Source: a virus | IMG/VR virus record: IMGVR_UViG_3300010883_000673 | Location: 1 to 20,375 of that record | Reading direction: 5' to 3' (one strand) | DNA: 20,375 nt | In this document: piece after piece, positions 2,048 through 12,361 of the stretch | Layout: the number at the start of each line of letters is the position of its first letter | Position numbering within the stretch: position 1 is the first letter of the stretch | Position numbers and translations under genes: made by a program | The notes under the pieces: generated by a model | Seen by the model: the letters and a program-made list of their open reading frames with translations, nothing else | Told to the model about the DNA's origin: nothing | The model's database searches: none

Positions 2048-2475
2048 TGGTCAACGATTATAGAAAATTTTGGGCAGATAAGAATAGTAAACAACCTTGT
2101 TTAGGATATAATATTATGGAAGAAAAACTTAAAGAATTAAAAGCAAACATAATAACCCACCCGGAATTTCACCAAATGTTACCTTTAGATGAGGTAACTT
2201 TTAAGTGGGATAAGGTGCAAGGTAAATGGGAAACTTTTGCTGATAGTCAAGGTATAAATTATAAAAAACTTTTTGATAGTTTAGAGAAAAATGGTATGTT
2301 ACATCCTGTTATGGTTCGTAAGATGAACGAAGGATACCGTAAATGGCAGGCAGGTGGTCGTAGAATTATATGGGCAAAACTTAAAGGTTACACTCATATT
2401 TCTGCCTATGTTTTAACAAAACAGGAAGAAGTTGATGAAATATACACAGTACAATATGATAAGACTTATAAATAA
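2044..2475 (+). CDS. ParB-like nuclease-domain protein
   Basis: 143 residues. The C-terminal half matches the ParB/sulfiredoxin-like domain: L76-F-D-S-L-E-K-N-G then H87-P-V-M-V near 87-91, Y98, G104-G-R-R107 in the place of the family's GxRR box, and K114-G-Y-T-H-I-S. In ParB proteins this segment binds and hydrolyses nucleotides; in phages it occurs in small proteins of mostly unknown function, often near DNA-modifying or transcription-related genes. The N-terminal 60 residues are not recognised. The start at 2044 is chosen for the ATGA overlap with the preceding stop; a TTG six bases upstream is possible but less likely. The stop codon overlaps the late promoter of the porin unit at 2467-2474. 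Confidence 0.72.
   Translation: MMVNDYRKFWADKNSKQPCLGYNIMEEKLKELKANIITHPEFHQMLPLDEVTFKWDKVQGKWETFADSQGINYKKLFDSLEKNGMLHPVMVRKMNEGYRKWQAGGRRIIWAKLKGYTHISAYVLTKQEEVDEIYTVQYDKTYK
2467..2474 (+). promoter_or_regulatory. T4-type late promoter for the porin unit
   Basis: Exact TATAAATA octamer, the -10 element used by T4 gp55-type late sigma factors. Transcription would start around 2480, leaving a leader of about 60 nt that contains a short CCTC/GAGG hairpin and GGAGA at 2530-2534, eight nt before the porin ATG. The octamer overlaps the stop codon of the preceding gene. Confidence 0.75.
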
Positions 2476-2542
2476 TACGAGAGCTCTACATAATTCCTCC
2501 ATCGAGGTTGATTAATCATAAAGAAATACGGAGAAAATAAAT

Positions 2543-3415
2543 ATGTTATTTAGGATAATAACACTAGCAGGTATTGCTTTGTTTCTATTTGCCTATACGG
2601 CAAGTGCGGCTGAGATAACGCCTTATGGTGCATTTAATTACAAATGGTCACATGATGAAAATTCTAGTGGCGTAGCATACGACAAACTTGAAGACGCTGG
2701 TTCAAAAATTGGTTTAGATTTTTCTGAAGCAAGTATTGAAGGTTCTTCAATTGGTGCAATTGCAAAACTAGAAGTAGGTATTGACACAGACGATAGTGGT
2801 TCAAATACTTTTGATAGCAGACTAGCATATGTTGGTCTTACTAACAACGGTGTAACATTATCAGTTGGCCGTCAATCACATCCGTTCACAGACAATGTTG
2901 GTGGTAAAACTAACAACTTTAATGTGTATGGATCAAATGCTGATTTTAATTATGCTACTCGTTCATCAAACTCAATTGCTTTATCTAGCGATATGTTAGA
3001 TGTTATGGCAATAGTAGATGGTTCATCTGGACAAGATGGCATTGATGAATACGAAGTTACATTATCTCATTCAATGGCAGGTTTAGATGTATCTGTTGGA
3101 TATGCTGATGATGTTGCTAGTGACATTTCTTATTGGGGTGCAGGTGCTTCAACAACTGTAGGTGATATCAAAATTGGTTCATCTTATACAGTTAGTGACG
3201 CTGCTACTGACAAAGTAGGAATGGAAGCAACAGTAGGTTATAAAGGACTTACAGTTGGTTATGGCGACAAAGAAGGAACTGGAACTTATTTGACCTATGG
3301 ATTAAGTCATAATATGACGGATAGTTTAAGTGTTTATGCTGAGTATCAATCAGACGATTTAGATACAGGTACAGACTTACAACACTATTCTATAGGAACG
3401 AAGTTTAGTTTTTAG
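2543..3415 (+). CDS. Phage-encoded outer-membrane porin
   Basis: 290 residues with the full layout of a Gram-negative general porin (Porin_4-like). Residues 1-22 form a Sec signal peptide: Arg4, a hydrophobic core, and cleavage after ASA at 20-22. The mature part starts AEITPYG, then alternates polar and hydrophobic residues in beta-strand pattern with short Gly/Asp turns, including a VGRQ segment typical of porin strands, and ends in GTKFSF, the terminal Phe expected for insertion by the BAM machinery. Length matches small porins. It should form a beta-barrel channel in the host outer membrane. An exact late promoter at 2467 and a good Shine-Dalgarno imply strong late expression. Precedent is the OmpC-like Lc porin of lambdoid phage PA-2. 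Role here is inferred: receptor masking or superinfection exclusion, altered permeability, or help with release. Confidence 0.82.
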   Translation: MLFRIITLAGIALFLFAYTASAAEITPYGAFNYKWSHDENSSGVAYDKLEDAGSKIGLDFSEASIEGSSIGAIAKLEVGIDTDDSGSNTFDSRLAYVGLTNNGVTLSVGRQSHPFTDNVGGKTNNFNVYGSNADFNYATRSSNSIALSSDMLDVMAIVDGSSGQDGIDEYEVTLSHSMAGLDVSVGYADDVASDISYWGAGASTTVGDIKIGSSYTVSDAATDKVGMEATVGYKGLTVGYGDKEGTGTYLTYGLSHNMTDSLSVYAEYQSDDLDTGTDLQHYSIGTKFSF

Positions 3416-3447: not shown

Positions 3448-3606
3448 ATGGATAAATGGATCAAAGAACATAGCGCATGGAAAGATTATGGACTAATTTT
3501 ATTAGCAGTTTGCCTGTTTACAGGAATCGTGGCGCCTATGTTAATCGTGAAATGGGGATTGTTAGCATGGATTGCTAGTAACCTATGGCACAGATATAAT
3601 TCATAA
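3448..3606 (+). CDS. Small membrane protein, 52 aa
   Basis: 52 residues preceded by a strong AGGAG at 3435-3439, eight nt from the ATG. The N-terminus is polar and charged (MDKWIKEH), followed by a hydrophobic helix at about 15-34 (GLILLAVCLFTGIVAPMLIV) and a second shorter hydrophobic, Trp-rich stretch at about 36-47, ending in a basic HRYNS tail. It is a likely inner-membrane protein with one helix or a helical hairpin. I do not recognise a family. Size and topology would suit a small holin-like or accessory membrane protein, but there is no holin-specific motif. It sits 32 nt after the porin and 15 nt before another microprotein, in one late unit closed by a terminator. Confidence 0.7.
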   Translation: MDKWIKEHSAWKDYGLILLAVCLFTGIVAPMLIVKWGLLAWIASNLWHRYNS

Positions 3607-3621
3607 ACAAAGGAAAACATT

Positions 3622-3771
3622 ATGATTAAGAAAATTATTTTTGCACTAATTGTTATATGTGCATTTTATCTTGGTCATCATTTTGGAGAAGAAGCTGCAA
3701 GAGTAATAGATAAAGTACCTTTACCAAAAGTTACAATTGAAATGCCTTCAGCTGAAATTTCAACTGAATAA
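3622..3771 (+). CDS. Small secreted or membrane-anchored protein, 49 aa
   Basis: 49 residues with an AAGGA about 8 nt before the ATG. The N-terminus is MIKK followed by a hydrophobic segment at about 5-18 (IIFALIVICAFYLG), so it is either a signal anchor or a signal peptide with Cys13 in the core; no convincing lipobox is seen. The remainder is polar, with GEEAARVIDKVPLPKV and an acidic C-terminus, probably exposed to the periplasm. Not recognised. As the last gene of the porin unit, 11 nt before the terminator stem, it may act with the porin or in envelope disruption (a spanin-like arrangement was considered but not supported). Confidence 0.65.
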   Translation: MIKKIIFALIVICAFYLGHHFGEEAARVIDKVPLPKVTIEMPSAEISTE

Positions 3772-3782
3772 CTAAATTAAAA

Positions 3783-3808
3783 AAAGGGAGACCTTATTGT
3801 CTCCCTTT
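3783..3808. terminator. Bidirectional rho-independent terminator
   Basis: Ten-base-pair stem AAAGGGAGAC / GTCTCCCTTT with a six-base CTTATT loop. On the plus strand it is followed by a T-rich run (TTTCTTCTTTTT); on the minus strand the stem leads into seven T residues. It lies 11 nt after the second microprotein stop and downstream of the convergent minus-strand operon, so it should end both units. Confidence 0.88.
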
Positions 3809-3819
3809 CTTCTTTTTCT

Positions 3820-3887
3820 GATGGCGAAAGCCCCAACCGGGCGCCTTAGCGAGGGATCAAGTCCCTTGTGGTTGGTTGAAAACCATC
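3820..3887. ncRNA. GC-rich structured element with tRNA T-arm-like hairpin
   Basis: Roughly 60% G+C by my count in a genome near one-third G+C, lying between convergent units with no convincing ORF. Pairings seen: GATGG 3820-3824 with CCATC 3883-3887; a GGC-GAAA-GCC hairpin at 3823-3832; CCAACC 3833-3838 with GGTTGG 3870-3875; and a stem GAGGG/CCCTT at 3851-3867 with the seven-base loop ATCAAGT. That last hairpin matches a tRNA T-arm at six of seven loop positions, including the conserved closing G-C pair. The CAACC/GGTTG helix sits where the acceptor stem would be, with only ten bases between in place of the D and anticodon arms. Some pairings exclude each other. It may be an ncRNA, a tRNA-derived remnant or a tRNA-like signal. 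The T-arm reads on the plus strand, but a minus-strand transcript would run straight into the terminator at 3783-3808. Confidence 0.45.
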
Positions 3888-3904
3888 TCTATGAAAACTC
3901 TATA

Positions 3905-6266: not shown

Positions 6267-6274
6267 TATAAATA
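6267..6274 (+). promoter_or_regulatory. Late promoter abutting the gp25 start
   Basis: Exact TATAAATA followed by five bases (GTCGT) and the gp25 ATG at 6280. With the usual T4 late start five to six nt after the octamer, the message would begin at or within one or two bases of the start codon. No Shine-Dalgarno is present in the preceding 15 nt. Confidence 0.75.
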
Positions 6275-6279
6275 GTCGT

Positions 6280-6723
6280 ATGGCTATCTATCAACAAGGT
6301 TATACGGATGCTTCTCGCACAAATGCTTCATCAAGGTCAGTAAGACTTTATAGAGATATAGCATTGAGTTTTGAAAAAAATAGTAATACTGGTGATATTC
6401 TTATTAAGAAAGATGTAGCAGCAGTTAAACAATCAGTAAGAAATTTGATACTCACTAATCATTTTGAGAGACCCTTTCATCCTGAAATAGGATCAAGTGT
6501 TTCTGCCATCTTGTTTGAACCATTGGGTCCAATAACTGCCAACATGCTTAGTAGAACAATATCAGAATGTATTAATAATTTTGAACCAAGAGCAAGACTA
6601 GTATCTGTTGAAGCTTTTCCTAATTTAGATAGAAATGCCTACGAAGTAACAATTAATTTTTATGTGGTCAATATACCCGGTGAAATGATACAATTAACAA
6701 CACTATTGGAGCGTAGCAGATAA
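6280..6723 (+). CDS. 25: Baseplate wedge protein gp25
   Basis: 147 residues of the GPW/gp25 family. It has the diagnostic segment ERPFHPEIG at 63-71 and the conserved EPR triad in N100-F-E-P-R-A-R-L, followed by two terminal strands (VEAFP, YEVTINFYVV). In T4 gp25 binds the gp6-gp7 core bundle of the baseplate wedge and nucleates sheath polymerisation through the EPR motif. Length is close to T4 gp25 (132). Its stop overlaps the ATG of gene 6 (TAATG). It may be translated from a leaderless late mRNA as well as by read-through from upstream. Confidence 0.93.
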   Translation: MAIYQQGYTDASRTNASSRSVRLYRDIALSFEKNSNTGDILIKKDVAAVKQSVRNLILTNHFERPFHPEIGSSVSAILFEPLGPITANMLSRTISECINNFEPRARLVSVEAFPNLDRNAYEVTINFYVVNIPGEMIQLTTLLERSR

Positions 6724-8573
6724 TGGCAAAGAGATTATCAGTAACAGATTTAGATTTTGATACAATCAAAGGTAATCTAAAAACATTTTTAAAACAACAA
6801 GACCAATTTACAGATTATGATTTTGAAGGATCAGGTATGTCAGTTATGCTTGATGTTCTGGCATATAATACACATTACAATGCCGTTTATGCTAATGTAT
6901 TAGCAAACGAAATGTTTATAGATAGTGCTGATTTACGAAATAGTGTAGTCTCACATGCCAAACATGTAGGATACACGGCTAGAAGTGCCACATCTCCATA
7001 TGCTGATATAACTGTTGTTGTTAATGACGCTACTGGTGGAACTTTAACGGCGGCACAAGGTACAACTTTTCAAACAACTGTTGACGGTACAACTTACAAC
7101 TATCTTGTAAAAGAAGATACAGCAATTTCACCTACTGATGGTGTTTATACTTTTTCTAATTTAAAAGTTTACGAAGGTACTTTAGTTAACAACAAATATA
7201 CTGTTGATACTTCAAATGCTGACCAAAGATTTTTAATTAAGAATGATATGTCAGATACAACAACTTTACAAGTTAAAGTTCAAAACAGTTCAGGTGATTC
7301 CACCTCAACAACTTACACCCTTGCAAGTGATTTAGCAGATGTTTCAAGTACATCAACTGTATATTACCTTGAAGCAACGGAAGATAGTCAATACGAAGTT
7401 ATATTTGGTGATGGTGTTTTAGGTAAAGCATTGTCAACTGGTAATATCGTAACATTAACATATATAGTAACCAATGGTGATGAAAGTAATGGTGCTTCAT
7501 CATATAGTTTATCTGGTACTCTAGGCGGATTTAGTGATGTTTCAATCACAGTAAATTCTGCTAGTGCTAATGGTGCAGAACCTGAAACAGCAGACAGTAT
7601 TCGTTTCAATGCACCAAAAACTTATACAACACAAAATAGAACAGTAACAACAAAAGATTATGAAAGCAAAGTTAAACAATTATATCCAAATGCTAAATCA
7701 GTTCAAGTATGGGGCGGTGAAGATAACTCAACACCAGTTTATGGTCGAGTATATATCTCTATTAATCCTGTTGCTGGTGCTACATTAACAGAAACAACTA
7801 AAACATCTATCATTACTCAACTTAAAGATTATAATGTGGGTAGTGTAACTCCTGTTATTGAGGACCCATTATCAACATATTTACAATTAACAACTACTGT
7901 AAGATATAATGCTAAACAAACTACACAAACGGCAGATAGTCTTAAATCTTTAGTATCCTCAGCAATCACAAATTATAACACAACTAACTTAACAGAATTT
8001 GACCAAGTGTTTAGACATAGTAAATTTATTGAAACAATGAACAAGGTAGATGATTCCATTGTATCAAATATTACTACAGTAAAATTATACCAACCATTTA
8101 CAGCAACCACTACAGGTTCTACAACATATACGCTTTATTTTAATAATGCATTTTATAATCCACATGATGGACATAATTCAGTAGGTAATGGTATTTTATC
8201 ATCAACAGCATTTAAGATAGATGGAGATACTACAAATGATTATTACTTAAATGATGATGGTTCTGGTAATGTAAGAATATATTATACAACTGCTGGTGTT
8301 AATACATATACTAACAATACAATAGGTACAATTGATTACACGGCTGGCACAATCACTATCAACAGTTTGTATATTACAAGTGTTGGTAATGTAGATGGTG
8401 CAAGTTCAACTGATGTGAGACTAACAGTTATACCTAATTCTGTTGATATTGTTCCAGTTCGTAATCAACTTATTCAAATAGACGAAACAAACACAACTGT
8501 TACTGTTACTGCTGATGATTATGATACAACAACAGGTATAGGTTATACAACAGCGACAAGTTATGCGAGTTAG
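6723..8573 (+). CDS. 6: Baseplate wedge protein gp6
   Basis: 616 residues; T4 gp6 has 660. The N-terminal MAKRLSVTDLDFDTIKGNL, FLKQQDQFTDYDFEGSGMSV and LDVLAYNTHYNAVYANVLANEMF segments are the characteristic start of gp6 in T4-like marine phages. A central part shows the baseplate-J-like fold, with A-P-K-T-Y-T-T-Q-N-R-T-V-T-T-K-D-Y-E near 296-313 (the conserved R-x-V-T-x-x-D-Y motif) and AKSVQVWGGEDN after it. Gp6 dimerises to close the hexagonal inner ring of the baseplate. The C-terminal 100 residues are a Thr/Asn/Tyr-rich beta domain. GGAG ten nt before the ATG is the ribosome site. It lies in the expected order 25-6. Confidence 0.92.
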   Translation: MAKRLSVTDLDFDTIKGNLKTFLKQQDQFTDYDFEGSGMSVMLDVLAYNTHYNAVYANVLANEMFIDSADLRNSVVSHAKHVGYTARSATSPYADITVVVNDATGGTLTAAQGTTFQTTVDGTTYNYLVKEDTAISPTDGVYTFSNLKVYEGTLVNNKYTVDTSNADQRFLIKNDMSDTTTLQVKVQNSSGDSTSTTYTLASDLADVSSTSTVYYLEATEDSQYEVIFGDGVLGKALSTGNIVTLTYIVTNGDESNGASSYSLSGTLGGFSDVSITVNSASANGAEPETADSIRFNAPKTYTTQNRTVTTKDYESKVKQLYPNAKSVQVWGGEDNSTPVYGRVYISINPVAGATLTETTKTSIITQLKDYNVGSVTPVIEDPLSTYLQLTTTVRYNAKQTTQTADSLKSLVSSAITNYNTTNLTEFDQVFRHSKFIETMNKVDDSIVSNITTVKLYQPFTATTTGSTTYTLYFNNAFYNPHDGHNSVGNGILSSTAFKIDGDTTNDYYLNDDGSGNVRIYYTTAGVNTYTNNTIGTIDYTAGTITINSLYITSVGNVDGASSTDVRLTVIPNSVDIVPVRNQLIQIDETNTTVTVTADDYDTTTGIGYTTATSYAS

Positions 8574-11682: not shown

Positions 11683-11690
11683 TATAAATA
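11683..11690 (+). promoter_or_regulatory. Late promoter abutting the fibre-like gene start
   Basis: Exact TATAAATA followed by GTAAC and the ATG at 11696: the same octamer-5 nt-ATG layout as at gp25. The only purine-rich stretch (GAAAGGTG) ends at or before the promoter and would not be on the transcript. Confidence 0.75.
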
Positions 11691-11695
11691 GTAAC

Positions 11696-12361
11696 ATGGC
11701 ATATCAAGCAGTAGGAATAGGTAGTTCAGCGAATGATGGAACAGGTGATACTTTAAGAGTAGGTATAGATAAAGTCAATGATAACTTTGTTGAGTTATAC
11801 ACGGCTCTTGGTGCAGGTTCTACAACTGCTTTAAAAGTAGTAACAACTGGCGCAAGTGCAGGTCAGGCATTAGTTTACGATAGTGGTAATGCAAGATTTC
11901 AACCAGGTAGTGTTGCTATTTCAGCAACTATTTCTACATTAACTTTTGAAGGTGGTACAGCAGACAGTTTTGAAACAACTTTAAATGTTGTTGACCCAAC
12001 TGCTGATAGAACAATTAATTTTCCAAACGATAGTGGTACTGTTTTATTACAAGCTGGTACTTCAACTGCTGCCGCTTCAGATGAAGCTTCATCTGCTGGT
12101 GCAGTTACATCAAATGCTGATAGAATTACACATACATTAACAATTGACGGTACCACAGCAGATAATGCTGAAATTGCAGATGTAACGGTAACGAATAGTA
12201 AGGTGACAGCTAGTAGCGTTATTCTTGCAACTAGTAGAGGTGCCGTAGATATTATAGTTCATACAGTTGCTTCTGGATCATTTAAATACATAATTGTAAA
12301 TAAGAGTGGTGGTACATTAGCAAATGATAGTACAGTAATAACAAACTTTATAGTGATATAG
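11696..12361 (+). CDS. Small fibre-like virion protein, 221 aa
   Basis: 221 residues. The opening AYQAVGIGSSANDGTGDTLR followed by KVNDNFVELYTALG is the NDGTGDTLR module that starts many tail-fibre and attachment proteins of marine T4-like phages. A second fibre-type element, DPTADRTINFPNDSGTVLL, lies near 100-120. The C-terminal part (NSKVTASSVILAT to FIVI) resembles a trimeric fibre-tip beta domain. Low in aromatics and Cys, rich in Thr, Ser, Ala and Gly as expected. It may be a short fibre or collar/baseplate decoration linking wedge and receptor-binding proteins; exact role unknown. It has its own late promoter, with possibly leaderless translation. Confidence 0.75.
   Translation: MAYQAVGIGSSANDGTGDTLRVGIDKVNDNFVELYTALGAGSTTALKVVTTGASAGQALVYDSGNARFQPGSVAISATISTLTFEGGTADSFETTLNVVDPTADRTINFPNDSGTVLLQAGTSTAAASDEASSAGAVTSNADRITHTLTIDGTTADNAEIADVTVTNSKVTASSVILATSRGAVDIIVHTVASGSFKYIIVNKSGGTLANDSTVITNFIVI

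Follow-up and report, generated by a model that had tools for sequence, protein, structure and literature searches.

What would a T4-like phage of SAR11 gain from an outer membrane porin of its own, placed behind a late promoter? Few cells on Earth are as abundant as those of SAR11, which, when lytically infected, must feed through their outer membrane while virions are being made. A conserved, dedicated viral porin would offer a testable handle on whether marine phages re-plumb this membrane, be it for feeding, hiding, or progeny protection. We address the question for one such gene, found in a 20,375-base virus record (IMGVR_UViG_3300010883_000673, positions 1 to 20,375), the whole of which is referred to here as the window.

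Phage lineage of the window

The window contains a T4-like baseplate region, and its gp6 is 76% identical to that of Pelagibacter phage HTVC008M, a T4-like SAR11 phage of the Kyanoviridae, compared to 55% for Mosig EXVC030M and 50% for the OM43 Melnitz phages. The window therefore represents a pelagimyophage of the HTVC008M group, which is group A of the pelagimyophage survey (PMC7029224), and an initial annotation of this DNA was right to place the porin inside a myovirus genome. The neighbors of the porin encode 2OG oxygenases, a methyltransferase, and a ParB-like protein, none of which names a nutrient.

HTVC008M itself encodes an "outer membrane porin" (AGE60376) that is 68% identical over the whole window protein and shares its gene order (spermidine-synthase-like gene, small ORF, porin, two ORFs of ~51 amino acids [aa], gp25, and gp6), as well as the upstream TATAAATA element and a two-hairpin leader. 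The HTVC008M leader is longer, with a full-length hairpin 2, but this is otherwise the same gene, and the location of the window porin between the gp5 region and gp25, behind a late promoter, is that of an ortholog. No porin homolog was detectable in the two other cultured relatives, Mosig EXVC030M and the Melnitz phages. Neither the gene, already annotated in HTVC008M, nor the concept of a phage porin is new. In the openly readable literature searched, we found no discussion of this porin family and no description of the inverted conservation, the covarying two-hairpin leader, the two conserved micro-membrane proteins, or the phage-lineage and accessory character presented below.

The gene encodes a general porin

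The complete ORF (Table 1) begins with a hydrophobic signal peptide (residues 1 to 22) that ends in YTASA and leaves a mature protein of 268 aa starting with AEITPYG. Its C terminus, KFSF, ends in the Phe found in all complete homologs listed. The protein thus carries both a Sec signal peptide and the C-terminal aromatic residue that serves as a signal for the BAM complex, confirming the earlier description of a complete porin with a signal peptide cut after ASA and a terminal Phe. Pfam assigns it to Porin_4 (E value of 4.7e-15; 56.6 bits against a cutoff of 27), a family also matched by the HTVC008M and L034 homologs, while the distant homologs L131, L117, and L143 match Porin_1. Neither PHROGs nor a profile search with alignment A1 gave a useful match (none at all in PHROGs), and a PDB sequence search returned only chance antibody matches. 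The identity of the protein as a porin is well supported; by extension, it would insert into the outer membrane, trimerize, and act as a pore.

Table 1. Features of the porin locus in the window
Feature	Position	Strand	Description
TATAAATA, T4-type late promoter element	2467..2474	+	Exact match; recurs in homologous leaders and marks HTVC008M structural genes
Porin mRNA 5' leader	2478..2542	+	Alignment A3, covariation, covariance model
Hairpin 1, CCTC-CATC-GAGG	2496-2507	+	Short form in the window
Palindrome TGATTAATCA	2509-2518	+	Reduced form of the relatives' hairpin 2
Shine-Dalgarno GGAG	2530-2533	+	9 nt before ATG
Porin ORF	2543..3415	+	ATG, complete, 290 aa; Pfam, AlphaFold2, Foldseek, VIA
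tm1, membrane micro-protein	3448..3606	+	52 aa; starts ~35 nt after the porin
tm2	3622..3771	+	49 aa; one N-terminal membrane helix, short conserved tail PLPKVTIEMP
Intrinsic-terminator-like hairpin	3779..3812	.	Bidirectional; strongest such site of the window, both strands

AlphaFold run on the porin sequence alone gave a pLDDT of 35, and an alignment of 61 homologs from viral contigs and HTVC008M (A2) was used as AlphaFold2 input instead. The resulting monomer model has a mean pLDDT of 88.8 and a pTM of 0.79, with 16 strands by DSSP segments when read from the C-terminal periplasmic end. Strand 5 is followed, as in general porins, by a long, inward-directed L3 (residues 113 to 139) containing a short helix. 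The best Foldseek match was Vibrio OmpU (E value of 9.8e-14), which VIA-align superimposed with a Z score of 27.7 over 263 residues at 2.4 Å. Across bacterial general porins that share the 16-strand barrel and L3 (Vibrio OmpU/OmpT, Comamonas Omp32, Neisseria PorB, and OmpF/OmpC), the model yielded Foldseek E values of ~1e-13 and VIA Z scores of 25 to 27.7 (255 to 269 residues; root mean square deviation, 2.0 to 3.2), although the window porin is only ~19% identical to the best of them and has shorter loops. The model shows the fold of a general porin, comprising 16 strands and a constriction loop. Of the trimeric 16-strand barrel expected in the initial annotation, the barrel is borne out for the monomer, which is what was modeled, and the trimer is presumed.

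The arginines on either side of L3, R110 and R140, are invariant in 61 of 61 homologs (alignment A2), as expected of a working pore. With 39 acidic and 13 basic residues, the mature protein has a predicted pI of 4.1, and all sampled homologs are likewise acidic.

A T4-type late promoter precedes the porin

The late promoter of cyanomyoviruses and T4 is NATAAATA or TATAAATA (PMC2984593). The exact element upstream of the porin overlaps the stop codon of the ParB-like ORF, and both the late promoter and the ribosome site originally noted are present. The motif occurs seven times in the window, always on the plus strand, with 3.84 occurrences expected over both strands; 6 of 100 shuffles reach seven, making the raw count weak evidence and position the better guide. 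HTVC008M has 20 sites on the plus strand and 1 on the minus strand, with ~16 expected per strand, indicating that the motif is depleted on the noncoding strand rather than enriched in total. Of the 20 plus-strand sites, 17 fall, as we read the annotation, within the 100 nt preceding an annotated start; the sole minus-strand site is found 13 nt upstream of a minus-strand gene. The genes behind these sites include gp25, baseplate wedge, tail sheath, portal, and CsgF; the site of the HTVC008M porin is at 27940. Among leaders of near porin homologs, 41 of 80 contain an exact TATAAATA (52 when NATAAATA is counted), compared to 2.1 expected. Furthermore, HTVC008M is annotated with a late-transcription sigma factor and with a putative transcription factor for late promoters, so that the element is found in a lineage with a gp55-type sigma.

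The porin is thus probably expressed late, judging from these sequence signals. No terminator lies between the porin and its upstream genes, however, and earlier expression by read-through is therefore possible. Sigma-70-like promoters near the porin were dismissed, as their number (68 found versus 67.6 expected) is at chance level.

A second outer membrane channel of HTVC008M is also preceded by this element: the curli pore operon, CsgF-CsgG, opens with TATAAATA at 7549, 13 nt before CsgF. The motif often stops exactly 5 nt before an ATG, leaving no space for a ribosome site, as at 6267-6282 and 11683-11698 in the window and at 6267, 7549, 31119, 49747, and 18929 (the last on the minus strand) in HTVC008M (L172). 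If the T4 start spacing holds, several late genes, among them gp25 and CsgF, would yield leaderless mRNAs. In contrast, the porin has a structured leader of 65 to 100 nt.

The 5' leader and the downstream genes

In HTVC008M-type relatives, two hairpins lie between the promoter and the Shine-Dalgarno sequence. In an alignment of 28 distinct leaders (A3), 91% of cells pair, and 17 cells have changed on both sides, compared to 4.9 in shuffles (0 of 500 as high), while the paired fraction falls to 32 to 47% in slid controls. The first pair of helix 1, for example, varies among U-A, A-U, and C-G. The window leader has a minimum free energy of -5.0 kcal/mol, and a covariance model recovers it with an E value of 6e-4 and the HTVC008M leader with 1e-9, both of which belong to or resemble the training set. 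These data support a structured leader, with the caveat that the structure was drawn from the same sequences and does not imply a function; the plain reading would be that of an mRNA-stabilizing 5' hairpin.

The two-hairpin leader as the mark of a phage-wide regulon was not supported, since a search of HTVC008M with model R1 recovered that of the porin alone. A weak R1 match (E value of 0.94) lies before the tail sheath gene of this phage (L173, 16796-16852), where a two-hairpin leader follows TATAAATA in a porin-like layout. Distant porins (L118 to L158) have G+C-rich leader hairpins ~30 to 60 nt before the ATG, e.g., GCGATCGC...GTGATCGC, that are unrelated in sequence.

All 69 near loci have both micro-proteins behind the porin, tm1 being highly conserved and of the same length throughout; neither has a PHROG match or a significant Pfam match. 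The bidirectional hairpin closes this porin-tm1-tm2 unit as well as the opposing minus-strand genes. The three genes do not form an obligate unit, since L180, L183, L188, and L191 have tm1 and tm2 without the porin; in the first three of these, reading of the site showed that the late promoter is also kept. L188 has a 27-aa membrane ORF at the place of the porin, and the DNA of L183 and L180 is near-identical there. In L209 (6937-7101), where the porin is likewise missing, a different, 54-aa two-helix protein precedes tm2. Directly after the terminator of the window lies a G+C-rich stretch (3816-3890) that folds strongly on either strand (~-27 kcal/mol on the plus strand), with no Rfam family, no tRNA, and no match among the related loci fetched.

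Selection and inverted conservation

The porin is under purifying selection (median dN/dS of 0.20, with a highest pair of 0.47, over 237 pairs). Among 42 near homologs, mean pairwise column identity is 0.75 for the extracellular loops without L3, 0.63 for strands, and 0.39 for periplasmic turns (P = 3e-7 for loops versus turns; P = 0.007 for loops versus strands). Pooled pN/pS ranks the three parts alike, with 0.24, 0.32, and 0.59, respectively. These columns are not independent and the strand limits come from the model; shifting the limits by one residue raises the loops-versus-strands P value from 0.007 to 0.09. In 19 distant sequences, loops again exceed turns, while loops and strands do not differ significantly (P ~ 0.12). 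Four E. coli porins (OmpC, OmpF, PhoE, and OmpN) show the opposite order, with 0.31 for loops, 0.71 for strands, and 0.74 for turns, in a control consisting of paralogs of one species for which the OmpF strand limits are approximate. Conservation in the phage family is thus inverted relative to the E. coli porins, with the loops conserved most and the periplasmic turns least.

The plain reading of this natural contrast is that a porin displayed mainly by doomed cells may escape the phage and immune pressures that diversify bacterial loops. The loops exceed even the strands, a possible sign that the outer face has a positive function, and loops that are both short and conserved imply a pore mouth that is open rather than shielded. 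More speculatively, and in our view rather doubtfully, a marine phage-specific porin family spanning T4-like SAR11 phages, phages of 240 to 330 kb, and others would have evolved this conserved outer face to act on the cell exterior during infection, by binding a partner or by setting selectivity. The porin would then be a surface organ of the virus's own making and not a pore borrowed from the host.

What the porin may do in the infected cell

We tentatively favor added outer membrane permeability during late infection. In this scenario, a gp55-type late promoter would turn on a porin gene that belongs to a phage lineage, and the secreted protein would fold in the outer membrane of the host as a barrel of 16 strands, presumably within a trimer. 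The barrel would add a short-looped, strongly acidic diffusion pore and thereby raise permeability to small hydrophilic solutes and ions through the long late phase, when a slow-growing SAR11 cell is producing virion proteins. We prefer this reading because a porin can work by mere addition, whereas replacing a receptor needs turnover, and because of the selected pore, the invariant arginines flanking L3, and parallels from marine systems. In viruses of oxygen minimum zones, a viral OmpL porin adjoins glnK-amtB (PMC8115048); this is likewise a porin in marine virus genomes, but its description, with a probable Bacteroidetes origin and a nitrogen-uptake cluster, sets it apart from the window porin. 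During cyanophage infection in the dark, transcripts of host porin and amt1 increase, a response taken by the authors as a sign of nutrient limitation (PMC5082946). The pelagimyophage survey, which also describes the curli pore operon, considers improved uptake as well as a changed surface for the same phages (PMC7029224). While the initial annotation took late timing to argue against nutrient uptake, these marine parallels and the possibility of earlier read-through lead us to a different view, in which the porin may serve uptake. Uptake cannot be essential, since close relatives (gp6 76% identical) lack the porin and keep the promoter together with tm1 and tm2.

The main rival, possible although we consider it unlikely, is that the porin remodels the surface so that the infected cell binds fewer other phages (superinfection exclusion) or fewer of its own progeny (their protection from receptor-bearing debris). 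A precedent is provided by PA-2-type phages. The idea is also in keeping with the presence of other late-promoted surface genes, such as the curli pore, and with conservation that peaks on the outer face, as would be expected of a functional surface. Receptor change of the PA-2 type acts in growing lysogens, though, and in a slow-growing, nondividing, lytically infected cell, the existing host porins and receptors would stay in place despite any additions. Conserved, nondiversifying loops are also unlike those of an arms race. Surface change against superinfection has been proposed for pelagimyophages (PMC7029224). In T4, however, exclusion is established quickly, and the exclusion protein Spackle is the product of an early gene (PMC7677548), so the late timing from which exclusion had originally been deduced speaks at least as much against it. 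Of the functions first suggested, late timing agrees more with the shielding of progeny from debris than with exclusion, and the step from such timing to exclusion is not supported.

A binding or signaling surface may account just as well for the conservation peak on the outer face. In such a case, conduction would be secondary, and the acidic outer loops (17 acidic and 2 basic residues among 77 loop positions) would bind a partner such as divalent cations and lipopolysaccharide, a virion protein, or a vesicle target. We regard this as improbable, in spite of the charge and the ranking of loops above strands and turns: no partner is known, short acidic loops may simply be stable in seawater, and the distant group alone does not place loops significantly above strands.

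Distribution and inheritance of the family

Five scans with porin queries identified more than 100 porin loci on viral contigs, so that related phages do carry the same gene. A near group (54 to 81% identity) comprises HTVC008M-like and other pelagimyophages; on contigs of sufficient length, their porin precedes gp25 by ~3 to 6 kb. Contigs of 242 to 328 kb and 92 kb encode porins of 43 to 47% identity, and in a distant group (34 to 40% identity), the porin adjoins phage primase and DnaB genes. Two scans for phage-conserved peptide patterns, which would reveal close relatives only, detected no relative in 84,980 bacterial and archaeal genomes. Porin distances correlate with those of the baseplate gene gp6 (Mantel r of 0.72 for 35 loci; 0 of 999 permutations as high), which suggests that the gene is old and mostly inherited vertically with the phage. 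From its occurrence on viral contigs, it appears to belong to a phage lineage.

This bears on whether the porin is incidental cargo, i.e., a host-derived gene kept without much benefit. The porin is accessory, since only 14 of the 20 close contigs that extend 5.2 kb or more upstream of gp6 carry it, and lambdoid phages do carry host-like porins: 42 phage records contain OmpC-like porins, including J02580, annotated as "lc outer membrane porin," which substantiates the PA-2 precedent cited at the outset of this work. Like the window porin, PA-2 lc and the lambdoid OmpC/OmpD/NmpC-like proteins are phage-encoded general porins. They are, however, 64 to 66% identical to E. coli OmpC and visibly host-derived, and they reside in temperate phages rather than behind a late promoter in a T4-like phage; tblastn with the window protein returned only HTVC008M and none of the 42 records, which places it outside the OmpC subfamily. 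Purifying selection, divergence that follows gp6, a conserved promoter and leader, and the lack of a close relative in the pattern scans of bacteria and archaea all speak against cargo, which selection and conservation already largely refute and which we hold to be quite improbable.

Least probable is help in lysis, the last of the roles first suggested, in which late over-expression would permeabilize or stress the outer membrane and speed cell opening; it accords with the late promoter, but we rejected it on the basis of a specific-porin fold with a constriction loop, purifying selection on that fold, and a location outside the lysis region, far from the lysozyme gene (putative lysozyme at 141,029 in HTVC008M).

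The two largest porin-bearing contigs, L117 (242 kb) and L125 (328 kb), are large phage contigs with terminase. In L117, the porin (43% identity) lies near genes for Hsp20, DnaK, SufB, a class-V aminotransferase, an aldehyde dehydrogenase, and an ExbB/MotA-like protein.
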